From positions 2,402,809-2,466,808 of the forward strand of contig NZ_LNUV01000006.1 of assembly GCF_001512285.1 (NCBI RefSeq): a stretch of DNA of 64,000 nt, in the 5' to 3' direction. Below, piece by piece: positions 9,604 to 37,336 of the stretch. The stretch comes from Arthrobacter sp. EpRS71. GTDB lineage: Bacteria > Actinomycetota > Actinomycetes > Actinomycetales > Micrococcaceae. Below the pieces are notes generated by a model. The model ran no database searches. It saw only the letters and a list, made by a program, of their open reading frames with translations, and was not told the DNA's origin. Both the position numbers and the translations under genes were made by a program. The first letter of the stretch is position 1, and the number at the start of each line of letters is the position of its first letter.

Positions 9604-9786
9604 ATGAAGCGCAGATCGCTCGTCGAGCTCAGGAAAGATACCCGCCACGAGACGGTCCGGCGTTCGACGTCGTCGCCCGGGAGTGCTTCCCGCGCCGGGA
9701 CTCCCGGCGCCCCTTCCCGTCGCCCTCAAACCTCTGGCCAATACCGCAATCCCGAAGGAGACCAGGCGTCACGCCGATCGCAATGA
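9604..9786 (+). CDS. Possible 60-codon leader ORF
   Basis: A 60-codon frame beginning ATGAAGCGCAGATCGC directly after a very strong ribosome site (AGAAGGAGAAGG). Its TGA overlaps the ATG of the RraA-type aldolase as ATGA, while the aldolase ATG has no good site of its own. The peptide is Arg/Ser/Pro-rich and resembles no family. This layout suggests a translated leader whose passage couples or gates translation of the operon. Two mutually exclusive GC hairpins lie inside it (9677-9707 versus 9692-9710). A chance ORF cannot be excluded. Confidence 0.4.
   Translation: MKRRSLVELRKDTRHETVRRSTSSPGSASRAGTPGAPSRRPQTSGQYRNPEGDQASRRSQ
9677..9710 (+). promoter_or_regulatory. Mutually exclusive hairpins within the leader ORF
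   Basis: CCGGGAGT (9677-9684) can pair with ACTCCCGG (9700-9707). Alternatively GCGCCGGG (9692-9699) pairs with CCCGGCGC (9703-9710). The two structures share the right arm, so only one can form at a time, as in attenuators. There is no U-tract, so any effect would be on translation or on Rho access. High GC content makes chance pairing possible. Confidence 0.35.
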
Positions 9787-10466
9787 CCAAGACACAGGAA
9801 TACAACCAGACCAACGCCGAGGTTTCGGAATACACCCACGAGCAGCTGCAGCGCTTGAAGCAGCTCGGCACGGCCACCGTCTACGAGGCGCAGGGCCAGC
9901 GAGGGTCCATTGCTTCGGAAATCCGACCCCTGGATCCGGCCATGAAACTGGTGGGAACGGCGCTCACCGTCAACACCACTCCCGGGGACAATCTGATGTT
10001 TCACCAAGCGGTGCTGATGGCACGCCCGGGCGATGTCCTGGTCGTGGACGCCAAAGGTTTCACCGACGCCGGCCCGTGGGGCGACGTCCTCACCCTCGCT
10101 GCACAGCAGGCGGGTATCGCCGGGTTGGTCATCGACGGTTCCGTCCGGGACTCCGAAGCCATTATCGAAGCTGGTTTCCCGGTGTTCTCCCGTGGCATCT
10201 CAATCCGCGGAACTACGAAAGTTGACCCCGGAGAAGTGGGCGGGACCATCAACCTGGCAGGCACGTTGGTCGAGCGCGGGGACATCATCATCGGCGACCG
10301 TGACGGACTCGTTGTGGTCAAGGCTGCGGACGTCCTCGACTCGCTGGAGAAGGCAGAAGCCCGCGAGGCCAAAGAAGAGGAGTTCCGTCGCCGAATCCTG
10401 GACGAAGGCGCCTCCACGGCAGAACTTCTGGGGCTGCTCCCAACTCTCCAACGCTACGGATGGTAA
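9783..10466 (+). CDS. RraA-like HMG/CHA aldolase-superfamily protein
   Basis: 227 residues of the RraA/4-hydroxy-4-methyl-2-oxoglutarate aldolase fold. The substrate loop [10 protein letters not shown] and the metal/carboxylate motif [10 protein letters not shown] (Arg-Asp pair) match aldolase members rather than pure RraA RNase-E inhibitors. The neighbourhood also points to an enzyme, which would cleave a 4-hydroxy-2-oxo dicarboxylate to pyruvate or oxaloacetate, or decarboxylate oxaloacetate. It opens an operon: its stop is overlapped by the ABC ATPase ATG (10460). The ATG at 9783 lies in ATGA overlap with the leader ORF. This is one of three paralogues in the window, each beside a different transporter. 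Confidence 0.88.
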
Positions 10467-11263
10467 CCATGGCTTCCTCCCACACCCCAGCAGCTGCGCT
10501 GATCCCCGACGGTGATACTTCCATCGTGCCCACGATGATCTCCATGAGGGGCGTGAACAAGCACTTCGGTCCCCTCCACGTCCTTCGTGACATCAACCTT
10601 GAAGTCACCCGCGGCCAGGTCGTCGTCGTCCTGGGCCCCTCCGGCTCCGGCAAGTCCACTCTGTGCCGGACAATCAACAGGCTGGAAACGACCGACACCG
10701 GATTCATCGCCATCGATGGCCAGGCGCTGCCCGCAGAGGGCAAAGCACTCACCCGATACCGGGCTGACGTCGGCATGGTATTCCAGTCATTCAACCTCTT
10801 CGCCCACAAGACAATCCTCGAAAACGTCATGCTTGCACCCCAGAAAGTGCGCAGACTCTCCAAGACTGCAGCCCGGGACCGTGCGATGGCCCTGTTGGAG
10901 CGGGTTGGCATCGCCAACCAGGCAGACAAGCTGCCGGCCCAACTCTCCGGCGGCCAGCAACAGCGCGTCGCCATCGCCCGGGCCCTCGCCATGGAGCCAA
11001 AGGTCATGCTCTTCGATGAACCAACTTCGGCGCTGGACCCCGAAATGGTCACCGAGGTCCTGGAAGTCATGTCGTCTCTGGCCAAAGGCGGCATGACGAT
11101 GCTCGTAGTCACCCATGAAATGGGCTTCGCCCGCCGGGCCGCGGACAGAGTGGTCTTCATGGCTGACGGTCAGATTCTTGAAGACACCACGCCCAACGAG
11201 TTCTTCTCCAATCCCGCAACTTCGCGTGCGCGGGACTTCCTTAGCAAGATCCTCAGCCACTAA
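10460..11263 (+). CDS. Polar amino-acid ABC transporter, ATP-binding protein (GlnQ-type)
   Basis: 267 residues. Walker [10 protein letters not shown] at about residues 61-69, Q-loop MVFQSFNLF, signature [15 protein letters not shown], Walker [14 protein letters not shown] and the H-loop [10 protein letters not shown] are all intact. The order and spacing are those of GlnQ/HisP-type ATPases driving amino-acid import. It starts inside the last codons of the aldolase gene; a second in-frame ATG at 10469 is equally possible. It is followed by the binding protein and two permeases, a complete transporter. Confidence 0.95.
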
Positions 11264-11297
11264 CTCCCCAAATCTCCCCAAAAGAAGAGCGATCCCC

Positions 11298-12134
11298 ATG
11301 AAACTCAAAGCACTTATTGCAGTCCCTGCCCTCGCCGTCATCCTCGCCGCCACCGGCTGCGGTGGCCAGGCAGGCAGCAGCGACGCCAAAGGCCTGACCG
11401 CCAGCGCTTCGGACGGCCTGACAATCGGTATCGCCTTCGACCGCCCCGGCATCAGCCAGAAGAACCCTGACGGCTCCTTCAGCGGCTTCGACGTCGACGT
11501 CGCAAAGTACGTCGCCACCAAGCTCGGCGTTGAAGAATCCAAAATCACCTGGCTGGAAGCACCGACCCCGCAGCGCGAAAACCTGATCCAGAACGGCCAA
11601 GTTGACTACGTAGTCGCCGCCTACACCATCAACGATGCGCGCAAGGAAAAGGTCGGATTCGCCGGCCCCTACCTGACGGTCGGCCAGTCGCTGCTCGTCC
11701 GCCAAGATGAAACGGCCATCACCGGCCCGGAATCACTCACCGGCGGCAAGAAACTCTGCTCCGTGACAGGCTCCACCCCGGCCCAGAACATCAAGAAAAA
11801 ATACGCCCAGGACGTCCAGCTCCAGGAGTACGACACCAACTCCGCCTGCGTCGAAGCACTCAAGGCCGGCGCAATCGACGCGATGACCACCGATGATGTC
11901 GTCCTGGCCGGCTACGCAGCTGTCAATCAGGGCAAGCTCAAGGTCGTCGGCAAGCCGTTCACCAAGGACTCCTACGGCATCGGTGTGAAGAAGGACGACG
12001 CCGAAGGCCGCAACAAGGTCAACGATGCCATCGAGGAAATGATCAAGGATGGTTCCTGGGCCAAGGCCTTCGAAAAGAACCTGGGCGCCTCCGGCTATGA
12101 AATGCCGACGCCTCCGTCTGTCGACCGGTACTAA
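11298..12134 (+). CDS. Amino-acid ABC transporter, substrate-binding lipoprotein
   Basis: 278 residues from the ATG at 11298, chosen because it starts a lipoprotein signal peptide (MKLKALIAVPALAVILAATGC) with Cys at about residue 21. The mature part is a SBP_bac_3 protein: IGIAFDRPG, FSGFDVDVAKYVATKLGV, a middle VDYVVAAYTINDARKEKV and KDSYGIGVKKDD near the end. It should be anchored outside the membrane and deliver a polar amino acid, perhaps glutamate-like, to the two permeases. Spacing to the ATPase is 34 bases, with AAAAGAAGAG as a modest ribosome site. Confidence 0.94.
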   Translation: MKLKALIAVPALAVILAATGCGGQAGSSDAKGLTASASDGLTIGIAFDRPGISQKNPDGSFSGFDVDVAKYVATKLGVEESKITWLEAPTPQRENLIQNGQVDYVVAAYTINDARKEKVGFAGPYLTVGQSLLVRQDETAITGPESLTGGKKLCSVTGSTPAQNIKKKYAQDVQLQEYDTNSACVEALKAGAIDAMTTDDVVLAGYAAVNQGKLKVVGKPFTKDSYGIGVKKDDAEGRNKVNDAIEEMIKDGSWAKAFEKNLGASGYEMPTPPSVDRY

Positions 12135-12173
12135 GCACCGCCGCGCCGCCCCTACGGATCCGGAAGTCATCCC

Positions 12174-12854
12174 ATGGAAATACTCACAGAATATGGTGAC
12201 CAACTGATCACCGCGTTCATTCGCACGATACAGCTCGCCGGGCTCTCTGCCGTGGGGGCGCTCGTACTCGGCACCATCCTCGCCGCAATGCGCGTCTCCC
12301 CTGTTTGGGCGCTGCGCACCGTGGCCACAGGCTACGTCAACATTGTCCGGAACACCCCCCTGACCCTGGTGGTGTTGTTCGCCTCCTTCGGCCTTGCCCA
12401 GCAGCTCGGCGTCACCCTGGTGGATCCCAACTCCCCCACCTCAATCACTGACAGTTCCTTCCGCCTCGCGGTTCTGGCCTTCAGCACCTACACGGCCACG
12501 TTCGTCTGCGAAGCACTCCGGGCAGGTGTGAACACCGTCCCGATCGGGCAGTCCGAAGCCGCACGTTCCTTGGGTCTGGGCTTCACCCAAGGGTTGCGCT
12601 ACATCGTTTTGCCCCAGGCGTTCCGTGCCGTCGTCGCCCCCTTGGGCAGCATCATGATCGCACTGATCAAAAACACCACGATCGCATCGGTCATCGGCGT
12701 CGCTGAAGCGTCACTGCTGATGAAAGAAGTCATCGAAAACACATCGGCCCTGATCGTCGTCGGCCTCATCTTCGCCCTCGGGTTCATGTGCCTGACGATC
12801 CCCACCGGCGCCGTATTCGGATTCCTCAGCAAGAAACTGGCGGTACGAACATGA
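12174..12854 (+). CDS. Amino-acid ABC transporter permease 1
   Basis: 226 residues, about five membrane helices. The cytoplasmic EAA loop (GQSEAARSLGLGFTQGLRYI) contacts the ATPase. It belongs to the HisM/GlnP-type permeases that pair as a heterodimer. Its TGA overlaps the ATG of the second permease (ATGA at 12851-12854), consistent with equal production of both. Confidence 0.93.
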   Translation: MEILTEYGDQLITAFIRTIQLAGLSAVGALVLGTILAAMRVSPVWALRTVATGYVNIVRNTPLTLVVLFASFGLAQQLGVTLVDPNSPTSITDSSFRLAVLAFSTYTATFVCEALRAGVNTVPIGQSEAARSLGLGFTQGLRYIVLPQAFRAVVAPLGSIMIALIKNTTIASVIGVAEASLLMKEVIENTSALIVVGLIFALGFMCLTIPTGAVFGFLSKKLAVRT

Positions 12855-13717
12855 GCAATCAGCCTGCACTCAAGACTCTCTACGACGCACCCGGACCCCG
12901 CGGTAAGACGCTGAACATCATCATCAGCGCCCTTTGCCTGGCCGGCCTCGTCGGCGGCATGTTCTGGGTCATATCGGCGCTGAACGCCAAAGGCCAGCTG
13001 GCCCCGGAAAAGTGGCAGCCCTTCCTTACCGCTGACATGTGGCGCACCTACCTGCTGCCCGGAATCGCCGGGACCCTGCAGGCAGCCGGCCTCGCCGTTG
13101 TCCTGGCAACCGCACTGGGGATCGTGCTCGGCGTGGGACGCATGTCCCAGATCAAAATCCTCCGCTACGGCTGCGGCGCCGTCGTTGAGTTCTTCCGGGC
13201 CATGCCTCTGCTGATCCTTATGATCTTCTGCTTCCAACTCTTTGCCAACTACAACCTGTTCCCATCAACCCAGATGGCCATGGCAGCGGTCGTTACCGGC
13301 CTGACCTTATGCAACGGGGCAGTTATCGCAGAGATTGTCCGCGCGGGCGTCCACTCGCTTCCGCGGGGTCAGAGCGAAGCATCCATGGCGCTTGGCCTCG
13401 GCAGCGGACAGATGATGCGGATGATCCTACTCCCTCAGGCCATCACCGCCATGCTCCCCCCGATCGTGTCCCAGCTGGTCGTCGCGCTCAAGGACACCGC
13501 GCTGGGCTACCAGATCACCTATGTCGAGGCGGTCCGGCAGGGTGTTCAGGCAGGGTCTGCATACTCCAACTACATCCCGGCTCTGCTGGTTGTGGCGGCA
13601 GTAATGATAGCCATCAACTTCGCCCTATCCCAGCTAGCCGTCACGGCCGAAAACAGGCTCCGAAAAGGCCGCAAAGCCGTTGTCAAACCTGAAGAAGTAG
13701 CTATCCCCCAGATCTAA
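12851..13717 (+). CDS. Amino-acid ABC transporter permease 2
   Basis: 288 residues; longer than its partner because of an N-terminal extension with an extra helix (NIIISALCLAGLVGGMFWV). The EAA loop reads GQSEASMALGLGSGQMMRMI. It belongs to the same HisQ/GluD-type family. It ends the transporter operon. A GC hairpin follows at 13741-13767, then a gene for a small protein. Confidence 0.93.
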   Translation: MSNQPALKTLYDAPGPRGKTLNIIISALCLAGLVGGMFWVISALNAKGQLAPEKWQPFLTADMWRTYLLPGIAGTLQAAGLAVVLATALGIVLGVGRMSQIKILRYGCGAVVEFFRAMPLLILMIFCFQLFANYNLFPSTQMAMAAVVTGLTLCNGAVIAEIVRAGVHSLPRGQSEASMALGLGSGQMMRMILLPQAITAMLPPIVSQLVVALKDTALGYQITYVEAVRQGVQAGSAYSNYIPALLVVAAVMIAINFALSQLAVTAENRLRKGRKAVVKPEEVAIPQI

Positions 13718-13740
13718 TTGCAGGCACATGGAAAGGTCTC

Positions 13741-13767
13741 CCTCCGCAGCGAGTTCAGCTGCGGAGG
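13741..13767 (+). terminator. GC-rich hairpin downstream of the amino-acid ABC operon
   Basis: CCTCCGCAGC and GCTGCGGAGG pair perfectly over 10 bp around a 7-base loop, and GGTCT/AGACC just outside can extend the stem past a mismatch. There is no U-run after it, so it may be a transcript-stabilising or Rho-associated structure rather than a strong intrinsic terminator. Confidence 0.5.
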
Positions 13768-13840
13768 AAGACCAACATCGTGAGACCGCAACCAAAAATC
13801 GTGTGCTCTCCCGCCATCACTCAACAAGGAAGTAAAGGCT

Positions 13841-14116
13841 ATGACCGCCTACCGCCATAAGGACTGGAACCAGCTCGTTGGTGCTTTCGTGGAAATCCGG
13901 CTAAACCGTGTAACCCTCCGCAAGGGCTACGTCGAACACGCGATGCCTAACTCGTCCGCCTTGTGGCTGGCCGCTGATAAGGAGCACGGCAGGGCCATTT
14001 TTGAATCTGCGGAAGGTCACGAGGTTTGGGTGGAACCCCAGGAAATGGAAGGCACTTTCACCTATCGCATGACGACATCTGCCCTCTACCCCGCGCTTCG
14101 CCGTAGCGATCCCTGA
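13841..14116 (+). CDS. Small conserved protein, three-copy family (member A)
   Basis: 91 residues, no known family recognised. Its core (about residues 7-65) aligns with two other small proteins in this window, at 30153 and 36945. The shared pattern is DW, a Gly four residues later, then V-x-[IL]-R, R-x-G-x-V-[ED], a Ser followed by a W-[LI] strand, an Arg and Phe, and G-x-[EK]-[VL]-W at the end. Alternating hydrophobic residues and glycines suggest a small all-beta barrel (SH3- or Sm-like; inference). AAGGAAG precedes the ATG. It lies 123 bases after the second permease gene of the amino-acid transporter. Confidence 0.7.
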   Translation: MTAYRHKDWNQLVGAFVEIRLNRVTLRKGYVEHAMPNSSALWLAADKEHGRAIFESAEGHEVWVEPQEMEGTFTYRMTTSALYPALRRSDP

Positions 14117-14591: not shown

Positions 14592-15598
14592 CTATTTCTG
14601 TGCTAAAACCTCCTGGATGATCGGTTTGACCATCGTTTCCCGTTTCTCCCACAGGATGCTGACATCCTTTCCAGAGATCCAAGTGGGCTGCGTTCCCGAG
14701 GCGCGAATTTTTTCCTGCACGTCGTGATTCTGGGCTGCTTTTTCCAAGGCTGATTCCAGCGCGGCCACTACGGCCGGTGGTGTCGTCGCAGGGACGGAAA
14801 TCGTGAAGTTGCTGCTCATCGGTTCCACGTCATACCCAGCGCTTCGCAGGGTGGGTACATCCGGGGTGAATGAGCTGACCTGGTCGTCAACGACAGAAAG
14901 AACCCGGACGTCTCCTGCCTTGTATTGGGCAAAAAAGCTGGCGACACCTCCCAGTGCAAAATCTATCTCCCCACTAATAAGAGCAGATACCTTGTCCGCG
15001 CCGCTGTTGTAGTGCACTACGTTGAAGTCCAGCCCCAGTTTCTGCTCCAGGATTGCCAGGTTTATGTGGTCATCACCTCCTCTGGAATCGGTGCCTACTT
15101 TGACTGTCCCGGTGCAGCTTTCACCGCGTCGAATAGCGACTTGATGTCTTTGTGGGAGCTGTTCGTGTTGACACTGATCACTAAAGCATTGGATCCGAAG
15201 GAGCCGATTGGTGTGAAGCTGCTGCGGTCAAAGCCAGCCTTTTTGCTCGGGTCCAGGTACCGGCCCAAAATGGAGGGAAGGTTAGTAGCGCCCAGTGTTA
15301 GCCCGTCCGGTTTAGCGTTTGCAAGGTAGTTCAAGCCCAGTATCTGGCCTCCGCCTTCCTTGTTTAGAACTTTGATCGTCGCGCCTAAGTGTTCCTGCAT
15401 GGCAGGTGCCACGATGCGAGCAACCACGTCGTTACCGCCGCCCGCTGCGGAGGGCACCACCCACTCCACTGTCGCCCCGGGCTTCGGAAAGTCAGCCTCT
15501 GCTGCTGCCGGAGGGGAACCGGCCTGGCCAGCGCAAGCGCTGAGGATCAACGCCATGGAGCCAGCCAGCACCGTAGTTTTAAGCACAGCGAATTTCAT
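14592..15598 (-). pseudogene. tctC: Tripartite tricarboxylate transporter binding protein TctC, one-base frameshift
   Basis: The ATG at 15598 follows AAGGAGATC and opens a lipoprotein signal (MKFAVLKTTVLAGSMALILS, then AC). The first frame matches the intact TctC at 17344-18354 through LFDAVKAAPG, then ends in QSK and a stop at about 15095. One base away the match resumes (VGTDSRGGDDH, LGLDFNVVHY) and continues to 14592. A single base is missing near 15100. Everything else is intact and conserved, so this is either a recent inactivation or a sequencing error. If repaired it would be a periplasmic-type solute receptor close to the tctBAC operon's own, perhaps with altered specificity. Confidence 0.85.
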
Positions 15599-16709: not shown

Positions 16710-17315
16710 TTAGACAACGCTCGCGAAGGCGACGCGTTTGGCTGCTTCTCCTGCTTCGATCTTTTCCGCCTCGGCCAGCACCTGTTCCGCTTCCTCGCGC
16801 CGGACTACCACGACGCCGTCGGCATCAGCTACGACGATGTCTCCGGGTGAGACGACGACTCCGTCGATTGCTACGGGGAGTTGCAGGCGGCCGGGGCCGA
16901 ACTTGTAGGGTCCTGCCGGGGTGACGGAGCGGGCGAAGACGGGCAGTCCGCATTCTGCCAGTGCGTCGGCGTCGCGGACGGCGCCGTCGATGACGAAGCC
17001 GGCCAGGCCCAGGCTTTTAGCCCGAATACCGATCAGGTCACCGATAAGAGCGCGGGACTGGTCACCGCCGCCGTTGACCACTATCACATCGCCAGGTTTT
17101 GCTTCGTCCAGGGCTTTGTGGATGTTGAGGTTGTCGCCCGGCCGGGTCCATACGGTGAAAGCAGGTCCGGCGAGTTTCGCTCCGGTCCATGTCGGTGAGA
17201 GTGAGGAAGCTACGCCGATTCGCTCCTGTGCATCACCAATATTGGCGGCCGGGATGACCGCGAACCGCCGCACTAGTTCAGCGGTGGAGGGGTGGGATGT
17301 GTTTTCTGCCTGCAT
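16710..17315 (-). CDS. RraA-like aldolase-superfamily protein in the tct operon
   Basis: 201 residues from the ATG at 17315; a further in-frame ATG at 17366 lies inside tctC and lacks a ribosome site. It carries the RraA/HMG-aldolase marks RPGDNLNIHKA, VVNGGGDQSRALIGDL and the Arg-Asp motif DGAVRDADAL, then GDIVVADADGVVVV. Probable reaction: metal-dependent retro-aldol cleavage of a 4-hydroxy-4-carboxy-2-oxo acid, or oxaloacetate decarboxylation. It is the last gene after tctB-tctA-tctC, so it should process a polycarboxylate brought in by that transporter. Confidence 0.87.
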   Translation of the reverse strand: MQAENTSHPSTAELVRRFAVIPAANIGDAQERIGVASSLSPTWTGAKLAGPAFTVWTRPGDNLNIHKALDEAKPGDVIVVNGGGDQSRALIGDLIGIRAKSLGLAGFVIDGAVRDADALAECGLPVFARSVTPAGPYKFGPGRLQLPVAIDGVVVSPGDIVVADADGVVVVRREEAEQVLAEAEKIEAGEAAKRVAFASVV

Positions 17316-17343
17316 CGTTTCGTCGGTCTTTCTGCTGGTGTGA

Positions 17344-18354
17344 TTACTGCTGTTGGAGGAGTTCATCGATGACTGGCTTCATTTGCTGTTCACGCTTTTC
17401 CCAAAGGGCGCTGATGTCACTCCCGGACACCCAGTCCGATTGGGTGGCAGCGCCCTTGAGCTTTTCTTGAACGGTGGGATCCTCTGAGGCCTTCTTCAGT
17501 GCAGACTCGAGCCTTGCCACAACTTCCTTAGGGGTCTTGGACGGGACGGATACTGCGAAGTTGTTTGTCATGGGTTCGACGTCGTAGCCGGCGCTCTCCA
17601 GAGTGGGAACCTCCGGCAAGAAAGAGCTGGCCTCGTCATCGATAACGGTAAGAATCTTGATGTCACCGGATTTGTACTGGCCGAAGAAGCTGGATACGCC
17701 GCCGATCGCGAAGTCGATTTCGCCGGAGACAAGGGCCGCGACTTTGTCGCCTCCGCTGCCGTAATGGACGATGTTGAAGTCCAGGTCGAGTTCCTTCTCC
17801 AGGATGCGCAGGAAGATGTGGTCATCGCCCGCCCGTGAGTCGGTACCTGCTGTGATCTTGCCGGGCTCGGCCTTGACGGCGTCGAACAGTTCTTTGATGG
17901 TTTTGTACTTGCTGTCCTTGTTGACGCCTATGATGACGTCATTGGAAGCGAAGGAGCCGACGGGCGTGAAGCTGCTCCGGTCGAACGCTGCCTTCTTGCT
18001 GGGGTCCAGGTAGCGGCCCAGAATGGACGGGACATTGGTGTAACCGAAGGTGAGGCCGTTGGGCTTTGACTGGGCGAGGTAGTTGAGGCCGATTACTTGG
18101 CTGCCGCCTTCCTTGTTGACCACGTTCACAGTGGCGCCGAGATCTGCTTGCACAGCTGGCGCCATAATGCGGGCCAGCGTGTCGTTGGCGGCACCTGGTG
18201 CCCCGGGTACGATCCACTCAAGGGTGGAGCCCGCTTTGGGGAAGTCGGCCGCTGCTGTGGTGGAGGTGCTGCCGCCTTGGCCACCGCAGCCGGTAAGGGC
18301 CAAGGCGATGGATGCGGCGAGGGCCGTGGTGGTCAGTGCGGTCAGTTTCTTCAT
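17344..18354 (-). CDS. tctC: Tripartite tricarboxylate transporter substrate-binding protein TctC
   Basis: 336 residues. Lipoprotein signal with an LTGC box at about residues 20-23. The mature protein is of the TctC/Bug family: LEWIVPGAPGAANDTLARI, VNVVNKEGGSQVIGLNYLA, RAGDDHIFLRILEKELDLDF and a C-terminal KEVVARLESALKKA. It captures a di- or tricarboxylate outside the membrane for TctAB. Its ATG overlaps the tctA stop as ATGA. Nearly all residues align with the frameshifted copy at 14592. Confidence 0.93.
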   Translation of the reverse strand: MKKLTALTTTALAASIALALTGCGGQGGSTSTTAAADFPKAGSTLEWIVPGAPGAANDTLARIMAPAVQADLGATVNVVNKEGGSQVIGLNYLAQSKPNGLTFGYTNVPSILGRYLDPSKKAAFDRSSFTPVGSFASNDVIIGVNKDSKYKTIKELFDAVKAEPGKITAGTDSRAGDDHIFLRILEKELDLDFNIVHYGSGGDKVAALVSGEIDFAIGGVSSFFGQYKSGDIKILTVIDDEASSFLPEVPTLESAGYDVEPMTNNFAVSVPSKTPKEVVARLESALKKASEDPTVQEKLKGAATQSDWVSGSDISALWEKREQQMKPVIDELLQQQ

Positions 18355-23753: not shown

Positions 23754-24794
23754 ATGCGCATCGACACCCACGCACACTTCACGACCGCTCCCCCTCAGCT
23801 TGAGGCTTGGCGCGGGAGGCAGATCGCCCAGGCAAACAGGCCAAGCAAGGGCAAGATTTCCATCAGCGATGACGAAATCCGCGAGGCGCTTCAGCGTCAG
23901 TTGGCGGAGATGGAGCAGACCGGAACTGACAAGCTCATCTTCTCGCCGCGCGCCTCCGGCATGGGACACGAATTCGGTGATGAACGCATCAGCCGCTACT
24001 GGACTGAGCACTGCAATGACCTGATTTACCGTGCCTGCGCGTTGTACCCCGACAGGCTGATCCCCGCCGCCCAACTTCCGCAGTCACCAGGCGTTAGCCC
24101 TGCCAATTGCATCGAAGAGCTGGATCGCGTGGTAAACGACATGGGCTTCGTAGGCGTTAATGTCAACCCTGACGTGGCAGGAGGAGGACAGCCCTTTACC
24201 CCGGCCATCAGCTCTTCCTGGTGGTATCCCCTGTGGGAACGCGTCGTCGAACTCGATGTACCCGTCTTGCTGCACGCCACGTCCACGGTTAATCCTGCCC
24301 TGCATCTTAATGGCTCCCACTACACAAACTGCGATTCCGCAGTTGTATTTGACCTTGCATGGTCCGACCTTTTCGACAGGTTTCCTACCCTGAAGATCAT
24401 CGTCCCGCACGGCGGAGGCGCGGCCCCCTTCCAATACAACCGCCACCGTTCCCTCCACGAACTGGCCGGCAAGAAGCCCTTTGAGGAGGCGGTCAAGAAC
24501 GTCTACTTCGACACCGCAATCTATGACCGCGACTCCATGGAGATGCTCATTCGCAAGATGGGCGTTGACAACGTCCTTTTTGCCGCCGAGATCGTTGGCA
24601 CCGCCAAGGTGACCGACCCGCAGACGGGGAAACGATTCGACGACACCGCAGGCTTCATAGAAGACATCGAATGGCTTACAGATACCGATAAGGAAAAGAT
24701 CTTCGCCGGCAATGCCCGGAAGCTCTACACGCGCGCAAACTTTGACGATGACAGCGCACTTAAGACGATGGCAGGCAAAGGAGCAGTTTCATGA
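23754..24794 (+). CDS. ligJ: 4-oxalomesaconate hydratase, amidohydrolase family (LigJ)
   Basis: 346 residues. It begins with the metal motif DTHAH (residues 3-7). Family blocks match LigJ of protocatechuate 4,5-cleavage: FSPRASGMGHEFGD, AAQLPQSPGVSPANCIEELD, LLHATSTVNPALH, IVPHGGGAAPF and the late DNVLFAAEIVGTAKVTDPQT. LigJ hydrates 4-oxalomesaconate to 4-carboxy-4-hydroxy-2-oxoadipate. Length fits LigJ (about 340). Its stop overlaps the LigK-like gene start by four bases, placing consecutive reactions side by side. No ring-cleaving LigAB or GalA was seen in the window. Confidence 0.85.
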   Translation: MRIDTHAHFTTAPPQLEAWRGRQIAQANRPSKGKISISDDEIREALQRQLAEMEQTGTDKLIFSPRASGMGHEFGDERISRYWTEHCNDLIYRACALYPDRLIPAAQLPQSPGVSPANCIEELDRVVNDMGFVGVNVNPDVAGGGQPFTPAISSSWWYPLWERVVELDVPVLLHATSTVNPALHLNGSHYTNCDSAVVFDLAWSDLFDRFPTLKIIVPHGGGAAPFQYNRHRSLHELAGKKPFEEAVKNVYFDTAIYDRDSMEMLIRKMGVDNVLFAAEIVGTAKVTDPQTGKRFDDTAGFIEDIEWLTDTDKEKIFAGNARKLYTRANFDDDSALKTMAGKGAVS

Positions 24795-25468
24795 ACATTG
24801 GATTTCAGGTCCTCAACCGCAAACAGTCGGTAACCCTTGAGCTTGCCCAGCGCTTCAAGGAGGTGCCAGTCTCAACTGTCAGTGATTCGATGAACCGGCT
24901 CACGGCGGCTGGTTCGAATCTGCGCCCGATGCACCGTGGCGGGCCGCTGGCCGGGCCGGCATTAACGGTGCGCACCCGGCCGGGTGACAATCTGATGGTA
25001 CACCTCGCCCTTGATCTTGCGGAGCCAGGAGACGTCGTCGTTGTTGATGCTGGCGGGGATACGACTAACGCCATCATGGGTGAACTCATGGTCATGCACG
25101 CCCTGAAGCAAGGGATTGCCGGCATCGTCATCAATGGCGCCATCAGGGACAGCGCCGCGATTAAGGAACAGGACCTTCCTGTCTACGCGGTAGGGATTAC
25201 CCACCGCGGACCATACAAGGACGGGCCCGGCGAAATCAATGTGCCAATTTCGCTGAACGGTATGACCGTCAGGCCCGGTGACCTCATCATTGGTGACGAT
25301 GACGGCGTTCTGGCTGTACCGCTGGAGGAAGCTGAGATGGTACTGGAGGCAGCAATCGCGAAGAACGCAAAAGAATTGGAAGCCGCAGTCGAGTTCCAAG
25401 CAGGCACGAGCGACCGCAACCCCATCAGGGCCAGGGCTGAAAAGCTTGGCGCCTTCTTCGAAGCCTGA
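24791..25468 (+). CDS. ligK: 4-carboxy-4-hydroxy-2-oxoadipate aldolase-like (LigK/ProA, RraA superfamily)
   Basis: 225 residues with the HMG/CHA-aldolase features: VSTVSDSMNRL near the N-terminus, RPGDNLMVHLALDLAEPGD, VVVDAGGDTTNAIMGEL, the metal Arg-Asp motif NGAIRDSAAI and DLIIGDDDGVLAVP. It would split 4-carboxy-4-hydroxy-2-oxoadipate into pyruvate and oxaloacetate, the step after LigJ. Overlap with ligJ (ATGA) and with tctB (TGATG) supports one tightly coupled unit. The substrate assignment depends on the LigJ neighbour. Confidence 0.85.
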   Translation: MNIGFQVLNRKQSVTLELAQRFKEVPVSTVSDSMNRLTAAGSNLRPMHRGGPLAGPALTVRTRPGDNLMVHLALDLAEPGDVVVVDAGGDTTNAIMGELMVMHALKQGIAGIVINGAIRDSAAIKEQDLPVYAVGITHRGPYKDGPGEINVPISLNGMTVRPGDLIIGDDDGVLAVPLEEAEMVLEAAIAKNAKELEAAVEFQAGTSDRNPIRARAEKLGAFFEA

Positions 25469-28529: not shown

Positions 28530-29498
28530 ATGAAGAAGCTCGTCATGGCCCTTGCAGCGACCGCAGCGTTATCGCTGACGGCATGTGCCCCGGACGCCGC
28601 CCCATCGGCCGAGGCAGACTACCCAAAGGCAGGATCGACCGTCAAACTCGTCGTCCCTTTCTCTGCGGGAGGAACTACCGATATCACTGCCCGTGCATTC
28701 GCTCCGGTTCTGTCGGATGCACTGGGGGCGAATGTGGAGGTCATCAACACCCCTGGAGCCGGCGGCCAAGTCGGCCTTACCTCTCTTGCCTCCGCGGCGG
28801 CTGACGGCTACACGATCGGGTTCACCAATCTCCCGTCCAGTATCCCCACCTACCTGGTCAAAGACAGGGGAGCTACGTACACAAAGGACAGCTTTGCTCC
28901 CATCGGGGCCCTCGCGCGCACTACCAACTACTTGGCTGTCAGTGCATCCAGTTCATATGGATCCCTGAACGACCTTCTCGCAGCCGCGAAGGCAGCGCCT
29001 GGAAAAATTACAGTGGGGGTCGCTGGCGACGACGAACAGCTGGGGGTGGAGGCAGCCGCCAAGTCGGCTGGCGTGACCTTTAATATCGTCCCCTTCGATG
29101 GGGGCAGTGAGAAGACCACCGCCTTACTTGGAAAGCAGGTAGAAGCGATCGTCGGAGGCGGCACCACCATCATCCCCGGAGTCAAAAACGGAGACTTCCG
29201 GGCGCTAGGTCTCTTCGGCGGGAGCAAGGATCCATTCCTTCCGGATATCCCCACGTTCAAAGACCAGGGCATTGACATTGATATCAACGGCTACCTCGTT
29301 GTATCAGCACCTGCAGGGACGCCGGAACCTGTCCTCGAGCGCATCGAAGATGCAATTGAAAAAGCCACCACAGACAGCAAGTTCCGAGATCTCGTCAATG
29401 CTGGCTTCCAGGAGCCGTTGTTCGTGCCTGGAAGCGAGATCTCTCAGAAGTGGTCGGACCAACAAGCAACCTTTGAAACTCAGTTAGCGGCCAAGTAG
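28530..29498 (+). CDS. tctC: TctC substrate-binding lipoprotein (third)
   Basis: 322 residues with a lipoprotein signal (MKKLVMALAATAALSL, then TAC). Family blocks: VKLVVPFSAGGTTDITARAF, VEVINTPGAGGQVGLTSLAS, the aspartate region LPDIPTFKDQGIDIDINGYL and PEPVLERIEDAIEKA. More divergent from the other two TctCs than they are from each other. It probably serves the TctAB pair encoded at 25468-27566, with the rpiR gene in between. Followed by a hairpin terminator and a USP gene. Confidence 0.93.
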   Translation: MKKLVMALAATAALSLTACAPDAAPSAEADYPKAGSTVKLVVPFSAGGTTDITARAFAPVLSDALGANVEVINTPGAGGQVGLTSLASAAADGYTIGFTNLPSSIPTYLVKDRGATYTKDSFAPIGALARTTNYLAVSASSSYGSLNDLLAAAKAAPGKITVGVAGDDEQLGVEAAAKSAGVTFNIVPFDGGSEKTTALLGKQVEAIVGGGTTIIPGVKNGDFRALGLFGGSKDPFLPDIPTFKDQGIDIDINGYLVVSAPAGTPEPVLERIEDAIEKATTDSKFRDLVNAGFQEPLFVPGSEISQKWSDQQATFETQLAAK

Positions 29499-29660: not shown

Positions 29661-30059
29661 ATGGCAGTTGTTGTCGGGTATATCCCCACAGTTGAAGGCG
29701 AAGCAGCCCTGAAGCGGGCTGTTCTTGAGGCGAGACTACGCAACACACGCCTAATTCTGGTCAATCTTCAGCAAAACGAGTCTCTGTCAGACGCTCGTTC
29801 GGCCTCTGAGCAGTCTCTAGCCGAGCTTCATAAGCAACTCGTTGCATCTGGAACGGAAGTCGAAACAATCTCCGCACCCGCCACGCACACCAGCGAGGCA
29901 CTTATAGAAATCGCTGCCACCCACAGTGCGGACCTGCTGGTCATCGGCATACGCCGCCGAAGCGCCGTCGGAAAACTATTGATGGGCAGCACGGCGCTGG
30001 AGATTCTAACGGGTGCTCCCTGCCCGGTACTCAGTGTTCGGCCAACCGGCGGGCAATGA
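29661..30059 (+). CDS. Universal stress protein
   Basis: 132 residues. VVVGYIPTVEGEAALKRAV at the start and VIGIRRRSAVGKLLMGSTAL near the end give a complete ATP-binding USP domain. Nearest relative in the window is the USP at 15842. Lies between the third tctC and small protein B, on the same strand. A weak site (AAAGCAGAGAGAAG) precedes the ATG. Confidence 0.9.
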   Translation: MAVVVGYIPTVEGEAALKRAVLEARLRNTRLILVNLQQNESLSDARSASEQSLAELHKQLVASGTEVETISAPATHTSEALIEIAATHSADLLVIGIRRRSAVGKLLMGSTALEILTGAPCPVLSVRPTGGQ

Positions 30060-30152: not shown

Positions 30153-30395
30153 ATGACGGAAAACCGGAACCCCGCCCCACCGCACTTCCGGAAGACAGGA
30201 GACTGGCAGACGACAAGAGGCAAAACGGTGGTGCTGCGCACACAAGAAACTTTTGTCCGCCAAGGTGTTGTCGAGGACGTCATGCCCAACTCAGAGGGGC
30301 TATGGCTCAGGAGCACCCCCACCCGGCCAAGAGAGTATTTTGACAAGGCAAGCGGATTCGAGTTGTGGATCCCGACTTTCGGAAGCAGTGCCTGA
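30153..30395 (+). CDS. Small conserved protein, three-copy family (member B)
   Basis: 80 residues. The core aligns with members A (13841) and C (36945): GDWQTTRGKTVVLR, then RQGVVEDVMPNSEGLWLR, a proline/arginine stretch and FDKASGFELWIP. The block MPNS followed three residues on by LWL is identical to member A. The first 15 residues are proline-rich and not shared. It starts 93 bases after the USP stop and is probably on its transcript. No known domain recognised; a small beta barrel is inferred from the pattern. Confidence 0.65.
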   Translation: MTENRNPAPPHFRKTGDWQTTRGKTVVLRTQETFVRQGVVEDVMPNSEGLWLRSTPTRPREYFDKASGFELWIPTFGSSA

Positions 30396-35542: not shown

Positions 35543-36124
35543 ATGACTATTGATTCGACTACGACCGGTTCCCCCGCCGAGCAGGCCCCGGCCGCGCCTT
35601 CCTACGTGGAGGGCTGGACGGGCCGATACTACGAAGACTTCAACGTCGGGGACACGTACAGACACCCGCTGGGCAGGACAATCACGCGGACGGACAACAT
35701 CTGGACAACGCTGCTGACCCAAAACTCCTCCCCCATTCACTTTGACGCGCATTATTCAGCCCAAACCGAGTTCGGTCAGCCTTTGGTTGATTCGACGTTC
35801 ACTCTGGCGTTGGTGACCGGACAATCGGTTGTGGACCTCTCGCAGCACGTGCTGGCAAACCTTGGTTGGGACAACGTCAGGCTCCCGCACCCGGTGTTCG
35901 AGGGCGACACCATCTATTCGCAGTCCGAGGTTCTGACCAAGCGGGAATCCAAGTCGCGTCCGAACGTGGGCATCGTGAAGGTCCGCACCATTGGTTTCAA
36001 CCAGCGCCGCCAAATTGTCATCGTGTTTGAACGGACGATGTTGATATACAAGAAGGGTCATGGGCCGGACTTTACTGGCGTGACCCCTGAATGGGACGAG
36101 CTGTCTCTTAGGGCGCTGCGTTGA
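35543..36124 (+). CDS. MaoC-like hydratase (itaconyl-/mesaconyl-CoA hydratase candidate)
   Basis: 193 residues from the ATG at 35543, the first with a full-length fold downstream. Hot-dog domain with the active-site pattern TLLTQNSSPIHFDAHYSAQT (Asp and His of MaoC hydratase 2) and VFEGDTIYSQSEVL. Family members hydrate a C-C double bond in a CoA ester. In Ich of itaconate degradation this gives citramalyl-CoA, the substrate of the next gene's enzyme. Its stop overlaps the TTG start of the CitE-like gene. Confidence 0.9.
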   Translation: MTIDSTTTGSPAEQAPAAPSYVEGWTGRYYEDFNVGDTYRHPLGRTITRTDNIWTTLLTQNSSPIHFDAHYSAQTEFGQPLVDSTFTLALVTGQSVVDLSQHVLANLGWDNVRLPHPVFEGDTIYSQSEVLTKRESKSRPNVGIVKVRTIGFNQRRQIVIVFERTMLIYKKGHGPDFTGVTPEWDELSLRALR

Positions 36125-36948
36125 GCCTGACGGAGAACCTCACAGGAGCTGAGACCTTCTTGTTCGTTTCTGGTGCGCAGCCTGAGCGCTATAGGAAGGC
36201 CGCCGTATCCGGCGCCGATGTGGTCATCATCGACCTCGAAGATGCAGTGCCGCAGAACCAGAAACAGGAAGCACGGCTGGGAGCTGCAAGCTTCCTGGCA
36301 GAGTCACGTGCCCTTGTGCGGATCAACGCAGTGGGCACGCCGCACATAAACGATGACGCAGCCGTCCTGGCCGATTCTGAGGGATTGATCGGCATCATGC
36401 TGCCGAAGGCTGAATGTCTGGACGACGTGGAGGCCGCCGCTGCTTTCTTCCCTGGCGTGCCAGTGGTCGCCCTGATTGAGTCTGCCCGGGGTCTTGCTTC
36501 TGCCCGGGAGATCGCCGAACACCCGGCCGTGGTGCGTCTCGCGTTCGGCAACCTGGATTTCGCCGCTGACCTCGGAATCACGCCAGGGGCGGAAGAGGAA
36601 GAACTGTTCTACGCCTTCTCCCATCTCGTTTTGGCCAGCCGCCTTGCTGGTAAGACAGCCCCCATAGCAGGGGTAACTCCCAATTTCCGGGACCCACACG
36701 TCGCGGCAGGCGATGCCCGCCGCCAACGTGCCTTCGGATTCGGGGGTAAGCTGCTAATCCATCCAGCACAGATCCAGCCAACAGTGGAATCCTTCGCTCC
36801 TACATCTGCCGAACTTGAATGGGCCTCCAGAGTCATCGCAGCTTCCGCCGCAGCCGACGGCGGTGCCGTCCAATTAGAAGGGGCCATGGTTGACCGGCCG
36901 GTTTTGCTCCGCGCCGAACGCATAGCCAGCCGAGGAACAGCAATATGA
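36121..36948 (+). CDS. HpcH/HpaI-CitE family lyase (citramalyl-CoA lyase candidate)
   Basis: 275 residues from a TTG at 36121 that overlaps the maoC stop. TIM-barrel lyase marks: ADVVIIDLEDAVP (metal Asp/Glu), the ALVRIN arginine, VVALIESARGL (Glu), FGNLDFAADLG (Asp) and FGFGGKLLIHP near the end. Comparable to citramalyl-CoA lyase (Ccl), which yields acetyl-CoA and pyruvate. Together with CaiB and MaoC it completes a three-step route. Malyl-CoA or HMG-CoA-like substrates remain possible. Confidence 0.9.
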   Translation: MSLTENLTGAETFLFVSGAQPERYRKAAVSGADVVIIDLEDAVPQNQKQEARLGAASFLAESRALVRINAVGTPHINDDAAVLADSEGLIGIMLPKAECLDDVEAAAAFFPGVPVVALIESARGLASAREIAEHPAVVRLAFGNLDFAADLGITPGAEEEELFYAFSHLVLASRLAGKTAPIAGVTPNFRDPHVAAGDARRQRAFGFGGKLLIHPAQIQPTVESFAPTSAELEWASRVIAASAAADGGAVQLEGAMVDRPVLLRAERIASRGTAI

Positions 36949-37235
36949 GCACGTATGCGCCGAGGACCATGCAGGCCACTCTCTTAGGCGTGGACACCAG
37001 TTTCAGGGCCTACAGGGTGCCCCTTGCTCCCCGCCTGAAAGGAGAAGAGGACGACTGGACCCAGCTCGAAGGCTCCTTAGTCGAAATCCGACAAGCGGGC
37101 GCTCTGATTAGGACAGGTACTGTCGACGCGGTCACCGCCGACTCCAGCATGATATGGATTGGCCAAGACGGCGCCCTACCCCGCCAGCTGTTCCTGCGGG
37201 CCGATGGTACCAAGGTTTGGACCTTCCACAGCTGA
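36945..37235 (+). CDS. Small conserved protein, three-copy family (member C)
   Basis: 96 residues. Its ATG overlaps the lyase stop as ATGA, so it is cotranslated with the pathway gene, the strongest evidence that this family is real. Residues 36-96 align with members A and B: DDWTQLEGSLVEIR, then LIRTGTVDAV, DSSMIWIG, PRQLFLRADGTKVW. The N-terminal 35 residues are unique and basic. No signal peptide and no cysteines. Function unknown; context suggests an accessory role for the uptake or enzyme complex of the module. Confidence 0.75.
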   Translation: MSTYAPRTMQATLLGVDTSFRAYRVPLAPRLKGEEDDWTQLEGSLVEIRQAGALIRTGTVDAVTADSSMIWIGQDGALPRQLFLRADGTKVWTFHS

Positions 37236-37305: not shown

Positions 37306-37336
37306 GGTTTGCGCCTCCGCATCGAAGGCGCAAACC
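37306..37336 (+). terminator. Terminator of the lysR-maoC-citE transcript
   Basis: GGTTTGCGCCT (37306-37316) pairs perfectly with AGGCGCAAACC (37326-37336) around a nine-base loop, then ATTTC follows. It lies 71 bases after the stop of small protein C and before the convergent NTF2-like gene. It could serve both strands. Confidence 0.65.

Follow-up and report, generated by a model that had tools for sequence, protein, structure and literature searches.

The closest described counterparts of the protein family reported here are small barrel domains and stand-alone barrel proteins. KOW domains, present in uL24 and as the C-terminal domain of NusG/Spt5, are small SH3-like barrels with the motif spacing G-x2-V-x-V ... 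G-x-V-x2-V. Barrels are also found in Sm, LSm and Hfq proteins, for which the Sm1 motif is D-x-x-M-N, and in the C-terminal SH3 domain of RimP (PF17384). Among stand-alone proteins, PipX is encoded by one gene per genome. Cyanobacterial PipX is described as an 89-residue TLD/KOW protein plus two helices that takes part in nitrogen control, an adaptor with PII and NtcA as its contacts and with a barrel that mediates self-interaction (PMC8696166). For PA2504 of Pseudomonas aeruginosa, a modelled Tudor-like domain and changed transcripts in the mutant, mainly of sulphur metabolism, are reported (PMC8466066).

We analysed a window of 64,000 nucleotides, that is, the whole stretch of DNA taken from Arthrobacter sp. 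EpRS71. An earlier note on this window had singled out three small open reading frames with a common core, and all three were confirmed on the forward strand: member A (13841..14116; 91 aa), with a predicted barrel in residues 1-65 followed by a low-confidence C-terminal tail; member B (30153..30395; 80 aa), scarcely longer than the core; and member C (36945..37235; 96 aa), which has a longer N-terminus and whose start codon overlaps the stop codon of the upstream lyase gene as ATGA. The previously described core is present in each of them, and both A and B contain MPNS followed after two residues by LWL. In six-frame searches of the whole 4.85 Mb genome, A retrieved B (E 1.2e-8) and C (1.9e-7), B retrieved A (4.7e-9) and C (5.9e-6), and C retrieved A (2.9e-7) and B (9.3e-6), all pairs being significant. 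Judged by these alignments, A, B and C are homologous. Three occurrences is the correct count for the window; genome-wide, profile A5, which comprises 38 diverse members, finds 13 places at E<=1e-4. Taken together, the cross-matches and the 13 places indicate that the family is real and larger than had been noticed, and on these grounds chance resemblance was rejected.

Homologues are also common beyond this strain, so that neither outcome named in the earlier note as refuting it occurred. A search with A matched 131 of the 150 genus genomes at E<=1e-3, with a patchy copy number of 0-10 matches per genome. Within Micrococcaceae, profile A3 matched 46 of 149 genomes spread over 15 of 32 genera. 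Using A5 at E<=1e-4, matches occurred in 14 of 297 genomes at the order level, every one of them Micrococcaceae, and in 2 of 296 at the phylum level, both within the genus; absence outside Micrococcaceae holds at first-look sensitivity because at most 20 candidates were scored per genome in the order and phylum scans, and at most 35 in the Micrococcaceae scan. At the sensitivity used, the actinobacteria-wide spread anticipated earlier was not borne out and, as far as searched, the family appears confined to Micrococcaceae. Among named bacterial genomes, alignment A2 detected 53 loci in records that all belong to Arthrobacter, Pseudarthrobacter, Tersicoccus or Sinomonas, and a scan of such genomes with A alone gave no relatives among 70 pattern matches. 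Plasmids carry 30 places in 22 records, all from Arthrobacter, Paenarthrobacter or Pseudarthrobacter. A phage origin was rejected, with 0 matches across 50,697 phage records. In 6 of the 22 plasmid records no gene is listed beneath the match (the gene table is incomplete), and on plasmid CP017422.1 of Arthrobacter sp. ZXY-2 (L157:4932-5282) a hypothetical gene is annotated antisense to a lutC-linked member.

Altogether 207 matches were reduced to 131 non-redundant members, including 122 at E<=1e-5 and, for the tree and charge calculations, 113 that are stop-free and no shorter than 50 aa. Their 203 sources are loci chosen because they match, 40 of them hand-picked from the Micrococcaceae scan, and form a non-random sample. 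Members are roughly 65-125 residues long with one predicted barrel each. R51 is invariant in the 113 aligned cores (113/113), followed by W42 (98%), G29, V31 and V17 (97% each) and W9 (92%). A median dN/dS of 0.17, calculated from 35 non-independent pairs of similar members (70-99% identical), implies that the open reading frames are translated and under selection. The 113 cores have a median pI of 5.8 and a net charge of -2, with pI above 8 in 21% of them, and the whole proteins A, B and C have pI values of 6.4, 9.5 and 5.7, respectively. Such mostly mildly acidic cores speak against simple RNA binding by the majority of members, with less force for the basic B, and weaken the suggestion of RNA binding made earlier; binding of a partner by family members is possible.

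An AlphaFold model of A, built from 37 aligned sequences, predicts a five-stranded barrel in residues 1-65. Block means of pLDDT range from 84 to 95 over residues 1-60, and the model has a short helix at 9-12 and strands at 16-21, 24-34, 40-43, 52-55 and 60-64. Past about residue 66 the tail is modelled with low confidence and has a single 4-residue helix. B and C are expected to adopt the same fold as A, the member that was modelled, because of their sequence similarity. A Foldseek search with the model returned mainly Sm/LSm chains in its top rows, with a non-significant best E of 0.14. VIA-align placed A nearest to the RimP C-terminal domain (Z 6.6), a Hfq-like protein (6.1), Sm proteins (about 6), the BirA C-terminal domain (5.8) and a chain of the DSIF complex that we take to be Spt5 (5.6); all rows for A fall below Z 8, a range that may reflect a common arrangement only. 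The structural neighbours of the modelled A are thus SH3-like barrels (RimP-C, Sm, Hfq), none of them decisive, and the SH3- or Sm-like barrel proposed in the earlier note is supported at the level of prediction by AlphaFold, Foldseek and VIA-align.

Comparison with sequence libraries gave no strong assignment. The best match to members in Pfam and NCBIfam has E 0.002, with nothing stronger, and the best match in PHROGs has E 0.016. For 26 members, the weak Pfam matches were to KOW6_SPT5 (10/26), DUF2642 (6/26) and RimP-C (1/26), and for the 38 members of A5 KOW6_SPT5 was found in 4/38 (best E 0.0022). Sequence searches against solved structures weakly pointed to FXR2 (Tudor) at E 0.094 and, in a second search, to FXR2, uL24m and Spt5 at E>=0.44. 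The KOW family PF00467 is absent from the families listed for members in the Pfam runs; in a PF00467 scan of the own genome at E<=0.01 the sole match was uL24 and no member matched, a weak negative because the NusG of this genome was likewise not listed at that threshold. Using KOW profiles of uL24 (18 sequences) and NusG (9 sequences) drawn from the genomes of the same scan, hhalign aligned A5 in register with both. The score against uL24 was 20.6 (60 column shuffles: mean 9.1, maximum 15.8; probability 12%) and that against NusG was 17.9 (60 column shuffles: mean 8.6, maximum 13.2; probability 6%); when A3 is used instead, they drop to 14.8 and 9.0, respectively.

The likeness to KOW consists of a small SH3-like barrel, predicted in the members, weak KOW5/KOW6 Pfam matches and, more tentatively, the G..V.V.........G.V..V spacing in the hhalign register (probability 6-12%). 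The members differ in lacking an NGN domain or ribosomal context, in their mostly acidic core and in two additional conserved residues, W42 and R51. From its sequence and modelled fold the family may fairly be termed KOW/SH3-like, and membership of KOW itself is not claimed. The predicted A model shares the barrel topology of Sm/LSm/Hfq (Z about 5.5-6.1), but the motifs and charge of the members are unlike theirs: column frequencies in the 113 cores show that neither the Sm1 nor the Sm2 motif is kept, and the LSM family is absent from the Pfam listings of members. The RimP C-terminal domain provides the best VIA row with 68 residues aligned at 7% identity; however, the members have no RimP N-terminal domain and no significant sequence match to it (the one weak HMM match mentioned above). 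For DUF2642 (PF10842), the best of the six weak matches has E 0.029, but B scores 14.7 bits against a cut-off of 22.7. PipX, compared by description, resembles the members in its similar size, its stand-alone TLD/KOW-type barrel with a C-terminal tail and its link to metabolism, whereas the low-confidence tail of A is not predicted to form two helices and the members are multi-copy and lie behind catabolic genes. PA2504, similarly compared by description, is likewise bacterial and has a modelled Tudor-like domain and effects on metabolism, but it has a second, C-terminal domain. Both parallels are analogies. No description of the family was seen among the papers listed by searches of an open-access library, which leaves most subscription journals outside coverage, and none of the sequence libraries searched has a name for the family.

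The three window members follow different genes, all on the forward strand. The cluster preceding A begins with an RraA-like aldolase gene (9783..10466; PRK09262, 183.4 bits against a cut-off of 179) and continues with an amino-acid-type ABC transporter comprising an ATPase, a binding protein and two permeases (10460..13717). Upstream of B are genes that we take, by recognition, to encode a TctC-type binding protein (28530-29498) and a USP-like protein (29661-30059), each with 0 NCBIfam matches at 1e-10. C is preceded by a RipB-like hydratase gene (35543-36124) and overlaps by 4 nt a RipC/CitE-like, itaconate-lyase-like gene (36121-36948), both assigned by NCBIfam below the equivalog cut-off. 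The gene after each of A, B and C lies on the opposite strand. The 64 kb also contain three RraA-like aldolase genes (9783-10466, 16710-17366 and 24791-25468), the second of which is presumably RraA-like by recognition; the first belongs to the cluster preceding A and the third lies about 5 kb upstream of B. On the reverse strand at 14592-15598, two adjoining open reading frames resemble pieces of a broken gene, presumably of TctC type, with an intact relative at 17344-18354.

Across the family, neighbours were called with a home-made hexamer gene caller, which misses small genes such as the USP-like gene before B. Of the 121 members with a called upstream gene, 110 share its strand, compared with a baseline of 441/640 (binomial p 7e-9, an optimistic value because members are related), and the other 11/121 have it on the opposite strand. 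Same-strand genes with a gap of at most 300 nt precede 91/121 members. The upstream genes form 56 same-strand clusters and 9 opposite-strand ones, the largest being RraA-like (12), RpiB-like (11), LutC (10), short-chain dehydrogenase (7) and acyl-CoA-dehydrogenase-like (6), followed by HutH (4), hydrolase (3), PntB (3) and pairs such as PdxS, alanine dehydrogenase and acyl-CoA synthetase; several of these names we assume by recognising the sequences. A Pfam run covered 48 of the 56 upstream representatives, leaving out L176 and seven under 100 aa. Metabolic-enzyme domains were found in at least 22 of the 48, as counted over 25 of the 60 families that matched, with one or two representatives each for RraA-like, HpcH/HpaI, zinc alcohol dehydrogenase, aromatic amino acid lyase, PNTB, SOR/SNZ, arginase, proline dehydrogenase, alanine dehydrogenase, AMP-binding, Orn/Lys/Arg decarboxylase and class-III aminotransferase, among others. 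On annotated plasmids (6 of the 22 records), members closely follow lutC, transferase, pdxS and ald genes, or putA at about 750 nt, and one lies behind a conjugation-region gene. The pdxS-linked member L145:5724 overlaps its upstream enzyme gene by 4 nt. Copies linked to lutC, rraA and rpiB were seen repeatedly among soil strains.

The earlier view that the family accompanies carbon-uptake modules in general and no single substrate needs to be recast. Many unrelated genes are indeed involved and no one substrate prevails; these are, however, catabolic and central-metabolism genes generally, including RraA-like, RpiB-like, LutC, acyl-CoA-dehydrogenase-like, HutH, PdxS, alanine dehydrogenase, PutA and PntB, and transporters are a minority. 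Downstream genes are on the same strand in 77/121 members, like the baseline, so the members are not generally the last gene, and the idea that they always are was rejected. In the tree of the 113 cores, which leaves 60 of its 110 inner branches open and for which quick support only was calculated, 66 labelled rows with 14 operon labels require 20 label changes, whereas 200 shuffles need 48.0 on average and never fewer than 43. This indicates that subfamilies keep to operon types. Separate branches nevertheless share an enzyme type, at least three for RraA-like and two for PdxS, with many forks unresolved. Domain fusions were rejected as a clue to function: in 12 of the 16 long-frame candidates the member is called as a separate small gene, and in the remaining 4 no gene is called and 3 run antisense to another called gene. 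Among divergent members, those of other genera (L180, L207, L203, L204 and L208) adjoin, in two separate arrangements, genes that we take to encode translation-linked ABC-F-like ATPases. A very divergent member of the own genome (L150:4967-5200; contig C6, near 2493002; E 0.003, or 6.9e-7 with A5) sits behind a sugar-acid catabolic cluster, presumably of permease, dehydrogenase and kinase genes.

The gap between the last permease gene and A contains a strong hairpin of 15 pairs without a T-run (13735..13773, forward strand) and folds at z -4.35. This hairpin is possibly a terminator, an attenuator or an mRNA-stability element; a consensus scan gave no terminator-like site there. A perfect hairpin of 11 pairs (37306..37336, forward strand), 70 nt past C, is a possible transcript end. 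Perfect stems of 11-20 pairs also lie ahead of several members of the RraA-linked clade, but overall stems of at least 8 pairs are not enriched before members (7/69 vs 30/254). Scanning the flanks of 56 cluster representatives for k-mers highlighted ACGAAAG upstream (8/56 vs 11/987, Bonferroni 0.033) and ATGGAC (14/56 vs 38/981, 0.0005) and CATGGAC (10 vs 16, 0.004) downstream. The former looks like a ribosome-binding site and the latter two look mostly like start regions of differing downstream genes. A mobile cassette or shared cis-element was rejected, as the k-mers seem accounted for by these contexts and hairpins are not enriched.

We tentatively favour, with rather less than even confidence, a function as a KOW/Tudor-like adaptor, one that tunes its own operon while binding a partner common to all members. 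Each copy would be co-produced with its catabolic operon. Through the conserved barrel (R51, W9, V17, G29, V31, W42) the members would bind one common cell partner, most likely a central regulator or a part of the transcription or translation machinery. Their N- and C-terminal tails, which vary, would tie a member to the enzyme or message of its own operon, and the operon-linked adaptor might then tune pathway expression or assembly by analogy with PipX. PipX, itself a TLD/KOW adaptor, shows that proteins of this kind can act in such a manner. Co-transcription is made less certain by the hairpin between the ABC genes and A and by the stems before several members of the RraA-linked clade. The fidelity of subfamilies to operon types and the 4-nt overlaps with an upstream enzyme gene, in C and in the pdxS-linked member, could also be accommodated by a small accessory subunit or chaperone dedicated to the enzyme encoded upstream. 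However, the upstream proteins form 56 unrelated clusters beside which the key residues are nonetheless kept, one enzyme type recurs on separate branches of the incompletely resolved tree, and no fusion was found among the 16 long-frame candidates. The same key barrel residues beside unrelated enzymes fit a shared partner better than enzyme-specific subunits, and we regard the dedicated subunit as unlikely.

The shared-partner adaptor also has to be weighed against an Sm/Hfq-like RNA-binding oligomer that would control the message of its own operon, perhaps in place of Hfq, which to our knowledge is absent from this group. Such an oligomer would agree with the high rank of Sm, LSm and Hfq-like chains in the structural comparison, with the Sm-like order of a short N-terminal helix and five strands in the A model and with the basic B, but it is made unlikely by the mildly acidic charge of most cores, by the missing Sm1 motif and LSM assignments, by flank k-mers that resemble ribosome-binding site and start-codon contexts and by the ordinary frequency of stems before members. 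Alternatively, the family might be a duplicating gene without an operon role that performs an unrelated cellular task and lies behind metabolic genes since the genus is rich in them. Its patchy copy number, its presence on 22 plasmid records and the location of some members behind non-metabolic or opposite-strand genes would be natural under this explanation; purifying selection and long-term loyalty to operon types would not, and neither a flanking mobile-cassette element in the k-mer scan nor a phage match was recognised. A role in the operon fits the retention of subfamilies with their operons better than neutral scatter does, and we consider a gene of the latter kind distinctly improbable.

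Arthrobacter-group soil bacteria are known to degrade many compounds. A wider proposal, which we regard as rather doubtful, is that Micrococcaceae evolved a set of KOW/Tudor-like adaptors, at up to 13 places per genome and behind different catabolic operons, that would all dock on one machine (the ribosome, RNA polymerase or a central regulator), possibly with the companion family described below acting alongside. If this were true, each operon would carry its own plug-in for carbon-source control. Being under selection, expanded in one bacterial family and located after dozens of unrelated genes, of which many are catabolic, the proteins make a good candidate for a layer of nutrient use, in its control or assembly, that has escaped study. 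Recognising the family would also supply a name for proteins at present called hypothetical, missing from gene lists or overlapped by gene calls on the opposite strand.

A second unnamed small family, of about 70 aa with the motif GILVTR...FTVxLSDxVPFGxT, occurs within 600 nt of 15 of the 122 members, for instance at L083:2968-3177, L082:6376-6606, L086:6335-6547, L104:7030-7254 and, in the own genome, C6:910858-911049. Its best Pfam match has E 0.02, and its model (beta-alpha-beta-beta-beta; mean pLDDT 74, a middling value) gave no significant fold match. This companion family is found in the genera coded g8 and g30 and in records named Arthrobacter. The own genome has three matches to it, all located outside the window, and the one at C6:910858 adjoins a divergent member of the barrel family.
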